Source: Halieaceae bacterium
GTDB taxonomy: Bacteria > Pseudomonadota > Gammaproteobacteria > Pseudomonadales > Halieaceae
Length of the DNA: 40,018 nucleotides
Direction: 5' to 3'
Assembly (NCBI GenBank): GCA_029247075.1
Contig: JAQWLX010000086.1
Location: forward strand, 1-40,018
Shown one piece after another: positions 11,279-14,759 of this stretch. Below the pieces are notes generated by a model. That model saw only the letters and a program-made list of their open reading frames with translations, was not told the origin of the DNA and did not search any database. Both the position numbers and the translations under genes were made by a program. Within the stretch, counting starts at the first letter, position 1, and each line of letters starts with the position of its first letter.

Positions 11279-12568
11279 TCATGGATCAAGATGTTTAGTA
11301 TTTGGATGTTCGTTGGGTTTAAAACCAGGTTTAACTAAGCACAACTGCACAGCCCCTATAACTCGCTCTCGAAAACCACCTTCACAATAAGCGAGATAAA
11401 ATTCCCACATTCGAATAAATCTTTCGTCAAATCCCTGGCGGACGACTTCCTCTGATTTGGATAAAAATCTACCTCTCCAGATAGATAAAGTTGTTGCATA
11501 GTCATGTGCTATATCTCGTAAGTGCGTGATTTGCATATCCGTATCTCTCCCTACATGGTATGCAATTTTTCCTATTGAAGGGAGGCAGCCTCCAGGGAAA
11601 ATATATTTCTTAATGAAATCAACCGTATTGGTGGCGGCTCGATATCTTTGATCTGGGATGGTTATTGCCTGTAATACCATCTTTCCATTTGGCGTGAGTA
11701 GTCGACTGCAAGATTCAAAATATTTCCCGAAAAACTGGTCACCTACTGCTTCTATCATCTCTATTGAAACCAGTTTATCAAACTGCCCGCTTAAGTTGCG
11801 GTAATCTTCGAGTAATACACTTATTTTTTCCTCTAAACCGTATTTCTTCACTTTCTCTAGCGCATATTTATATTGTTGTTTTGATATTGTCGTTGTTGTT
11901 ACTTGACAATTAAATTGTTGCGCAGAGTAGATGGCCATTCCACCCCAACCAGTGCCAATTTCTAATAGATGATCTTCTTCGGTTAGTTCTAGCAGTTGAC
12001 AAAGGTTGTCGAGTTTATCCTGAGACGCCTTGTCAAGATTACTCGCCCCATCAAAAAATACAGCTGACGAATACATCATTCTGTCATCTAGAAACAACTT
12101 AAAAAAATTATTACCTAGGTCGTAGTGAGCTGCTACGTTGCGTTGAGAACCTTCAACGGTATTTCTGTTAAAGAAATGTTCTATTGAGAGTCTGAGTCTG
12201 CCAGCCAGATTTTGCTGATAACGCATTTTTTCTAACATACTTAGATTCGCACTGAAAAGTTGTATGACTATTGGGAGGTTGGGGGAGTTCCAGCCTCCAT
12301 CTATATATGCTTCACCTGACGCTAATACTCCGCCACTTAAAATATTTCCATAAACGCTTCTGTCATGGATTATCACTTCTGCATTAAGATCTTTTCTTTG
12401 TTTGTCTTTGCCTAAAGTGATTTTCCCATAATCATCTTCTATAGTTAAAATCCCAACTGAAATTTTATTAAATAGTCTTAACAAAATGCTTCGGCTTAGC
12501 GATTTTTTTCTATCAGATAGTTGATTCATACCTAATAAATTAAGTAGTGAGATAATACCTTTAGTCAT
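11279..12568 (-). CDS. cfa: Cyclopropane-fatty-acyl-phospholipid synthase family SAM methyltransferase
   Basis: NVAAHYDLGNNFFKLFLDDRMMYSSAVF, LLEIGTGWGGMAIYSA, SIEMIEAVGDQFFGKYF, FIKKYIFPGGCLPSI. Confidence 0.93.
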   Translation of the reverse strand: MTKGIISLLNLLGMNQLSDRKKSLSRSILLRLFNKISVGILTIEDDYGKITLGKDKQRKDLNAEVIIHDRSVYGNILSGGVLASGEAYIDGGWNSPNLPIVIQLFSANLSMLEKMRYQQNLAGRLRLSIEHFFNRNTVEGSQRNVAAHYDLGNNFFKLFLDDRMMYSSAVFFDGASNLDKASQDKLDNLCQLLELTEEDHLLEIGTGWGGMAIYSAQQFNCQVTTTTISKQQYKYALEKVKKYGLEEKISVLLEDYRNLSGQFDKLVSIEMIEAVGDQFFGKYFESCSRLLTPNGKMVLQAITIPDQRYRAATNTVDFIKKYIFPGGCLPSIGKIAYHVGRDTDMQITHLRDIAHDYATTLSIWRGRFLSKSEEVVRQGFDERFIRMWEFYLAYCEGGFRERVIGAVQLCLVKPGFKPNEHPNTKHLDP

Positions 12569-13324
12569 TTAATGCCTCGGAGAATTTCTTTTAGGATGAG
12601 AATGAAGTGGCGTACCCTTGACAAATAATTTGAGCGCTTCCCAATAGATAGCCGCTCCTATATTGATGGTCATGAGCGGATATCGAATCAGGTGTAGATT
12701 TAATGACCATGCATTTAAGGCTCTCGCTTTTAGAGCTAGGCTGGCATCGAAGATCAATCGATCATCCTGATAATTTTTTAAGTGGACTATTAATCTTGAT
12801 CCTGGTGCATTGCTGCGCCAGTGATACTGCATGTCCATTGGGTTGAAAGGAGACACATGAAGCGATTTTTCAAATTCTGTTTTTAACCAAGTGTCAGTCC
12901 CAGGCCCCTCGAGGACATAGCTGTGACGTTCGTCCCAAGGGGTGTTGTTAACCTCGGCGACAATATACTGCAGTTCGGTCATTTCTCGGTTGTAGCAATA
13001 ATAAAATGCGATAGGGTTCATTTGAAAACCAAAATAGCGAAGGTTTGCGAGCAAAAAAATTGGCCCGTCATGAAGAGCCTTTGTTTCCACAAATATTCTT
13101 TGCCGCACTTCTTCGATTAGTGAGTTTTTATTATCGCCTAGGAAATCTGACCTCTTAAAATAACCTAAAGCAAAATGCCGAGCGGACCAAAGCGGAATTT
13201 TATCTAGTAAACCCGGAAGTTCCTGAAGACAAATGAAGGGCATAAAAACACGGTACGTGAAACTATGCATAGTGGGTTCGTGTCTTCGGTGACGAAGTAG
13301 GCCGGTGTATAGTTTTGACTTCAT
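12569..13324 (-). CDS. DUF1365 domain-containing protein
   Basis: LYTGLLRHRRHEPTMHSFTYRVFMPFICLQELP, YFGFQMNPIAFYYCYN, EVNNTPWDERHSYVL; lies between cfa and an FAD oxidoreductase, a familiar arrangement. Confidence 0.92.
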   Translation of the reverse strand: MKSKLYTGLLRHRRHEPTMHSFTYRVFMPFICLQELPGLLDKIPLWSARHFALGYFKRSDFLGDNKNSLIEEVRQRIFVETKALHDGPIFLLANLRYFGFQMNPIAFYYCYNREMTELQYIVAEVNNTPWDERHSYVLEGPGTDTWLKTEFEKSLHVSPFNPMDMQYHWRSNAPGSRLIVHLKNYQDDRLIFDASLALKARALNAWSLNLHLIRYPLMTINIGAAIYWEALKLFVKGTPLHSHPKRNSPRH

Positions 13325-13341: not shown

Positions 13342-14583
13342 TTATGTTAGTTCTTTGGCAATTTTAAGAGCGCTATTAACTCCATCTTCATGGAAACCAT
13401 TCCCCCAATAGGCTCCGCAGTACCAGGTATTGGAAACGCCATTTATAGAAGCCCAATGTTTTTGGGCTGAGCAGGCCTTGAATGAGAATACTGGGTGTTG
13501 GTATTCGAATTTCCCCAGAATCTTACGCGCGTTTATTGAGTTGGAATCATTCAGAGTGATACAGAATGTCTCGGGAGCAGAGATTCCTTGAAGAATGTTC
13601 ATATTGTATGTGACTGTTGCCCTGTAATTATTCGATCTCAATCTATAGTTCCAGCTACTCCAGACTTTAGGATTTTTCGGTAATAGTTGAGTGTCAGTAT
13701 GTAAGATAACCTCATTAACCTGATAGGGTATGGCTCCTAAAATTTGCTTCTCTTCTTCGAGTGGATCCTCGAGAATTTTTAGGGCTTGATCAGAGTGAGT
13801 TGCTATGACGACCTGGTCAAAAAAATAAGTCTGTCCCCTTTCTACTTGAACACGAACTTTATTCTTTTCTTGTCGTGATATTGATGTTACTCGACAATTC
13901 GTAAGAATATTGTCTCTAAATCTCGAGGTTAGAGGAGCAAGGTATTCTCGAGAACCTCCTTCAATTACATGCCATTGAGGTCTATTTCGAATAGAGAGCA
14001 ATCCGTGATTATGAAAAAACGAAACAAAGAAAATAGCAGGGAAATCCAATACGTTATCCCAGTCTGCAGACCAGATTGCCGATCCCATGGCAATCAGATA
14101 TTTATCTACAAAAATTTTGCTATAGCTGTTTCTTAATAGGTAGCAGCCAAGTTTTTCTGAAGGGTCTATGTTGTTTGTTTTTAGATCGTTTGTGGCTTGT
14201 TTATTAAAACGAATAATGTCTCTAAGCATCGTCAAGAAAGACCAGGAAAATATATTTTGGCGTTGAGCAAAAATCGCATCTAGATTCTTGCCGGCATATT
14301 CAATACCTGTTTCTAGATCGCTTAAAGAAAAACCCATAGAGGTGTTTTTTTTTGCAATACCTAGCTCTTCTATTAATTTAACAAAATTTGGATAATTCCT
14401 ATCATTAAAGACAATGAAGCCTGTATCAATTTGGTAGGTCTTATCATCCAGTTGAACGTCACATGTCGCCGTGTGTCCACCAATTCTTCTCTCGGATTCA
14501 AAAACAGTTACTTCATGGCTCTTTTCGAGAAAGTAGGCACAGGAAAGACCTGAGATGCCTGAACCCACAATTCCTATTTTCAT
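13342..14583 (-). CDS. FAD-dependent oxidoreductase (NAD(P)-binding/amine-oxidase-like)
   Basis: MKIGIVGSGISGLSCAYFLEKSHEVTVFESERRIGGHTATCDV dinucleotide-binding motif. Track starts at 14598 (TTG); ATG at 14583, preceded by AAGGG, is preferred. Confidence 0.9.
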   Translation of the reverse strand: MKIGIVGSGISGLSCAYFLEKSHEVTVFESERRIGGHTATCDVQLDDKTYQIDTGFIVFNDRNYPNFVKLIEELGIAKKNTSMGFSLSDLETGIEYAGKNLDAIFAQRQNIFSWSFLTMLRDIIRFNKQATNDLKTNNIDPSEKLGCYLLRNSYSKIFVDKYLIAMGSAIWSADWDNVLDFPAIFFVSFFHNHGLLSIRNRPQWHVIEGGSREYLAPLTSRFRDNILTNCRVTSISRQEKNKVRVQVERGQTYFFDQVVIATHSDQALKILEDPLEEEKQILGAIPYQVNEVILHTDTQLLPKNPKVWSSWNYRLRSNNYRATVTYNMNILQGISAPETFCITLNDSNSINARKILGKFEYQHPVFSFKACSAQKHWASINGVSNTWYCGAYWGNGFHEDGVNSALKIAKELT

Positions 14584-14623: not shown

Positions 14624-14653
14624 GTGTTACGAATTATAGCTTTTTTTGGATCA
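14624..14653 (-). promoter_or_regulatory. ECF (RpoE/ChrR-type) promoter for the FAD oxidoreductase-DUF1365-cfa operon
   Basis: Minus strand: TGATCC (14653-14648), N18, TAACAC (14629-14624), about 40 bp upstream of the ATG at 14583. Confidence 0.75.
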
Positions 14654-14680
14654 ACCTTTTAAAAACTTAAGAGGATCATA

Positions 14681-14709
14681 TGATCCGAAAGAGGAAAAAG
14701 TTCGTAAAT
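14681..14709 (+). promoter_or_regulatory. ECF (RpoE/ChrR-type) autoregulatory promoter for the sigma/anti-sigma operon
   Basis: TGATCC (14681-14686), N18, TAAAT (14705-14709), upstream of the sigma ATG at 14760. Confidence 0.75.
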
Positions 14710-14759
14710 GCAGGAAGTCACCATACTTGGTAAACTATTAACACACACAGAGTGGACTT

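Follow-up and report, generated by a model that had tools for sequence, protein, structure and literature searches.

Paired ECF11-type promoter sites between rpoE-chrR and a predicted furan fatty acid operon in a Halieaceae bacterium

The window analyzed here is a stretch of 40,018 nucleotides of genomic DNA. Neighboring genes (ParC, EF-P, and EpmA) and its relatives place it in the Halieaceae, marine Gammaproteobacteria of the OM60/NOR5 group. Two divergent operons (Table 1) are separated by a gap of 176 bp between their facing start codons. The plus-strand operon encodes a sigma factor that finds its best PDB match in RpoE of Rhodobacter sphaeroides (2q1z, E = 6e-34; the next-best ECF sigma factor gives 1e-15), followed by a ChrR-type anti-sigma factor whose start overlaps the sigma stop. 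The latter scores 162 bits against TIGR02451, above the cut-off of 124.5, and has R. sphaeroides ChrR as its best PDB match (2z2s, E = 8e-29). The zinc ligands of R. sphaeroides ChrR are H6, H31, C35, and C38 in the ASD and H141, H143, E147, and H177 in the cupin domain (PMC6852236). All eight are aligned and conserved in the window's protein, as H5, H30, C34, C37, H142, H144, E148, and H178. An RpoE-like sigma factor with regions 2 and 4, an adjacent ChrR that keeps its ligands, and a TGATCC-N16-CGTA site before the sigma operon are the features on which we assign this system to the ECF11 group.

Table 1. Genes and predicted promoters of the divergent locus (window coordinates).
Feature	Coordinates	Strand	Families and details
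UfaM-like SAM-dependent methyltransferase, Cfa superfamily	11279..12568	-	PF02353
UfaO-like DUF1365 protein, predicted furan-forming oxygenase	12569..13324	-	PF07103, 241 bits
UfaD-like FAD oxidoreductase, predicted methyl-18:1 desaturase	13342..14583	-	Pfam Amino_oxidase / NAD_binding_8; ATG 14583, MKIGIVGSGISG
ECF11 promoter of ufaD-ufaO-ufaM (predicted)	14628..14653	-	TGATCC 14653-14648, N16, CGTA 14631-14628, then ACAC
ECF11 promoter of rpoE-chrR (predicted)	14681..14706	+	TGATCC 14681-14686, N16, CGTA 14703-14706, then AATG
ECF11 sigma factor (RpoE of RpoE-ChrR type), 196 aa	14760..15350	+	Pfam Sigma70_r2, r4_2; ATG 14760
ChrR zinc anti-sigma factor, 217 aa	15343..15996	+	TIGR02451 anti_sig_ChrR; Cupin_7

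A preliminary description of this DNA had placed a promoter on each strand of the gap, and both sites are indeed present. Each matches all 10 specified bases of the ECF11-type consensus published for Pseudomonas syringae, TGATCC-N16-CGTA (PMC5507510), with the canonical 16-nt spacer; Shewanella RpoE2 promoters have been mapped as TGATCC and CGTA(T/A)T (PMC4336711). The form first given to the sites, TGATCC-N18-TAA, captures the same bases in another register, but the true -10 element is CGTA and the spacer is N16. Both promoters are predicted, from their sequences, to be active in the Halieaceae bacterium. From their positions we infer that rpoE-chrR transcripts would start near 14712-14714, approximately 47 nt 5' of the sigma ATG, and ufaD-ufaO-ufaM transcripts near 14622-14620, approximately 38 nt 5' of the ufaD ATG.

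To gauge how often such sites arise by chance, the 176-bp gap was shuffled 200,000 times under a first-order Markov model. An exact site appeared on one strand in a fraction of 8.5e-5 of the shuffles and on both strands in none; the looser TGATCC-N18-TAA pattern appeared on one strand at 1.1e-3 and on both strands in 0 of 100,000. TGATCC by itself occurs in the window at about the chance frequency (23 observed versus 20 expected), so the case for the sites rests on the spacing of the two boxes, their position, and their conservation. A third TGATCC lies on the minus strand at 14678-14673, where it forms a perfect 14-bp palindrome, GGATCATATGATCC (14673-14686), with the plus-strand -35 box; no CGTA is found at the right distance from it. 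In the same-genus genome G002 the palindrome is broken (GAATTATATGATCC), and we rejected it as a binding site because it is not conserved there. Both -35 boxes and the minus-strand -10 are kept in G002 while the surrounding bases differ, and the contig ends before the plus-strand -10. That the boxes match only by chance, or that GGATCATATGATCC is bound by a dimer and neither site is a promoter, would be in keeping with the background frequency of TGATCC and with the third copy that completes the palindrome. We consider this explanation extremely improbable, given that the paired sites are absent from shuffled sequence and conserved across the family with the canonical two-box spacing, and that the promoter boxes outlast the palindrome within the genus.

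Conservation in relatives was one of the points at which the preliminary description could have failed, and both elements are kept in many of them. In 17 of 19 Halieaceae genomes, the window's own included, each strand of the region ahead of the orthologous sigma gene carries a site that matches at least 9 of the 10 bases. Eleven of the 19 have an exact N16 site on each strand, versus 0 of 9,500 shuffles. We also compared 80 named Halieaceae loci (L154-L233), a set that overlaps in part with the 19 genomes. The ufaD gene is divergent from the sigma gene in 78 of these loci. The full ufa trio was recovered in 70, several loci being truncated where a contig ends. Of the 80, 71 carry the lipid-side site and 43 carry both sites. 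Beyond the Halieaceae, ECF11 sites are likewise found next to sigma genes in further families of the order. At one locus (L017, G008:C44), DUF1365 is approximately 4.1 kb away from the sigma gene, and a site was detected on the sigma side alone; the divergent pair seems to have been split there. The sites, the class of the sigma and anti-sigma factors, the divergent operon, and conservation in relatives all support the original RpoE/ChrR-type assignment, and we are highly confident that an ECF11 RpoE-ChrR switch is controlled divergently from the 176-bp gap.

The minus-strand operon encodes a FAD enzyme, a DUF1365 protein, and a methyltransferase, which appear to correspond to ufaD-ufaO-ufaM of the furan fatty acid pathway. 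The chemistry of UfaM, UfaD, and UfaO has been established, and DUF1365 is UfaO (PMC7380195). A UfaD of the FAD/amine-oxidase type adjacent to a DUF1365 UfaO is the arrangement by which we recognize a furan operon, and it is found here; the product is a prediction from these genes. The methyltransferase gene is the last of the operon, the next gene being on the opposite strand. Its product had been labeled Cfa, and the possibility that it is a true Cfa, making cyclopropane rather than furan fatty acids, draws on its Pfam CMAS domain and on E. coli Cfa being its best PDB match. Its scores, however, fall below the NCBIfam Cfa cut-offs. We take the bicarbonate ligands of E. coli Cfa to be C139, E239, H266, and Y317. 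E239 and Y317 have retained counterparts (E273 and Y357), whereas C139 is replaced by S168 and H266 by Q300, such that the protein lacks the full set of four bicarbonate-site residues by which we would recognize a Cfa. Among 69 aligned sequences (the window's and those of other Halieaceae), these two positions are S or A and Q without exception, and never C or H. These replacements and the UfaD and UfaO neighbors, which fit the furan pathway, make a cyclopropane product improbable in our view. Given the sub-threshold scores and the two replaced ligands, we call the third gene UfaM-like rather than Cfa. Operon context and residue loss are the grounds for this name, and the earlier cfa label, which the replacements across the Halieaceae contradict, is likely a misannotation to be corrected to ufaM.

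The layout closely resembles that of R. sphaeroides, in which RSP_1091-1087 lies upstream of rpoE-chrR and an RpoE-dependent promoter precedes both operons (PMC3818230). Shared features are the divergent operons with a promoter each, the ChrR ligands, and UfaD and UfaO as the first two genes (PMC3818230, PMC7380195, PMC6852236). Since the same divergent layout with two RpoE promoters has been published for that organism, the arrangement and its logic are already known. There are also differences: ufaM of R. sphaeroides (RSP2144) lies elsewhere, whereas here the methyltransferase gene stands third in one operon with ufaD and ufaO, and, unlike in RSP_1091-1087, no further operon genes follow it. 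Three adjacent furan fatty acid genes are known from Rhodopseudomonas palustris (RPA2571-2569; PMC7380195), and ufaD-ufaO-ufaM are consecutive in Halomonas sp. YLGW01 (PMC12089945), as they are here. In P. syringae (PSPTO_1043) and Shewanella (RpoE2), both ECF11 systems, TGATCC-N16-CGTA likewise lies upstream of the sigma-chrR operon, but the outputs differ, being katG, photolyase, and glutathione peroxidase-hemH2 (PMC5507510, PMC4336711). The core ECF11 regulon includes rpoE-chrR and the furan fatty acid genes, and the system is thought to be older than the split between α- and γ-proteobacteria (PMC6852236). Our comparison carries the singlet-oxygen switch of Rhodobacter, together with the lipid operon that feeds back on it, over to an entire marine family.

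R. sphaeroides is the model from which we infer the signal, the proteolysis of ChrR, the lipid product, and the feedback. In an unstressed cell, the zinc anti-sigma factor ChrR would hold the sigma factor. Singlet oxygen would bring about the loss of ChrR, and the freed sigma factor would act at the TGATCC/CGTA promoter on each strand. Transcription from the plus-strand one would yield more sigma factor and ChrR, providing autoregulation and re-closing the switch. From the minus-strand promoter would come UfaM, UfaD, and UfaO, by which membrane vaccenate would be methylated, desaturated, and oxidized to a furan fatty acid. UfaD and UfaO may also aid the turnover of ChrR in a positive loop, as suggested by R. 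sphaeroides, where the pair is needed for full activation of RpoE by singlet oxygen (PMC3818230). The lipid enzymes had been described as direct output of the response. The divergent operon with its own ECF11 site agrees with this, but on the R. sphaeroides model UfaD and UfaO would be a feedback arm as well. The same description pooled singlet oxygen and organic peroxide as signals, which does not hold in R. sphaeroides, where organic peroxide activates RpoE without RSP_1090/1091 (PMC3818230).

It is conceivable, though rather unlikely, that the sites are promoters of a sigma factor that answers mainly organic peroxide, metals, or blue light instead of singlet oxygen. Several Halieaceae are aerobic phototrophs. 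We found no photosynthetic reaction-centre gene and no sign of phototrophy in the host bin, which is approximately 71% complete; in this, and in being a gammaproteobacterium, the host differs from R. sphaeroides. RpoE-ChrR systems are also found in non-phototrophs (Pseudomonas and Shewanella), with links to peroxide. Weighing toward singlet oxygen, all eight ChrR zinc ligands are kept, those of the cupin site included, and so is the ufaD/ufaO arm, whose role in R. sphaeroides is in the response to singlet oxygen, not to organic peroxide. Moreover, porphyrins or dissolved matter can expose a surface-marine bacterium to singlet oxygen.

The two promoters differ in how they have been kept within the family. 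All 68 distinct lipid-side sites have a 16-nt spacer, with variable sequence following CGTA. Sigma-side spacers are 15, 16, or 17 nt long, and CGTA-TACT is found at 32 of 41 distinct sites, giving a -10 that matches TATAAT at 5 of 6 positions. In most Halieaceae loci that have a sigma-side site, the usual reading is thus CGTATACT, in which CGTA overlaps a sigma70-like -10, TATACT; the window's own sigma-side site is CGTAAATG, without TATACT. The sigma-side ECF11 site is missing from 37 of the 80 loci, so autoregulation is not universal. Nearly all of the 37 belong to one Luminiphilus-like clade (35 rows, support 99/95), in which no sigma-side ECF11 site was found, and 33 of its 35 rows retain TGTATNCT about as far from the sigma gene. 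Placed on the tree, presence or absence of the sigma-side site requires two changes, versus a mean of 25.5 for shuffled labels. The site was apparently lost once in the Luminiphilus-like clade, most members of which keep the lipid-side site. In a subclade of nine (L203, L204, L207-L211, L214, and L219), ufaD is divergent, and no ECF11 site matching at least 9 of 10 bases was found on either strand.

The simplest reading, which these data suggest, is a single loss of autoregulation, after which sigma70-type expression stayed and so did the lipid-side promoter, except in the nine-member subclade. At the B-type sites of the Luminiphilus-like clade, the best sigma70 -35 scores 3 of 6 in 17 cases and 4 of 6 in 16, and a score of 4 or more is obtained in approximately 11% of shuffled sequence; a sigma70 -35 is therefore weakly supported. 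The related sequences are not independent, and for the sigma70 reading as a whole they are suggestive only. Taken jointly, the sigma-side promoter would be a composite in which an ECF11 CGTA overlaps a sigma70-like -10 (CGTATACT) at a loosened spacer of 15-17 nt, and its ECF11 half would have been lost, apparently once, in a clade that keeps TGTATNCT. The lipid side would remain strict, and autoregulation would be evolutionarily dispensable while the arm that provides lipid output and feedback persists. We regard the chances of this joint reading as evenly balanced. The split between the promoters within the Halieaceae is perhaps new, and the separate fates of two promoters in one family offer a natural test of the purpose of autoregulation.

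A genome-wide scan for TGATCC sites had been proposed as a check, and it was made with a strict and a loose pattern. In the incomplete genome of the window, TGATCC-N16-CGTA occurs 5 times versus 1 for the reversed control, whereas the loose pattern TGATC-N16-18-CGTA occurs 37 times versus 30. Since the loose count is near its control, the regulon is not readable from the pattern alone, and the other matches to the loose pattern lie mostly within genes. Two of the five strict sites are those described here, two are inside open reading frames, and one precedes hemH. This last site (L031, G000:C3:8673-8698, minus strand) is a perfect TGATCC-N16-CGTA approximately 65 bp upstream of the ferrochelatase open reading frame. 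It is perfect in the same-genus genome G001 and carries one mismatch (TGGTCC) in the same-genus G002. We consider hemH of the window's genome a candidate regulon member on the basis of this sequence. Membership of hemH across the family was rejected: no perfect site precedes the other hemH genes examined in the Halieaceae, and canonical sites that are perfect or have one mismatch are confined to the window's own genus and a second hemH copy in G025. In Shewanella, the ferrochelatase gene hemH2 lies downstream of an RpoE2 promoter (PMC4336711). Clearance by HemH of protoporphyrin, a photosensitizer, would fit such a role. A further site (L052, G000:C56:2709-2735, minus strand) reads TGATCC-N17-CGTA, one base over the canonical spacer, approximately 59 bp upstream of a Rieske iron-sulfur-like open reading frame.
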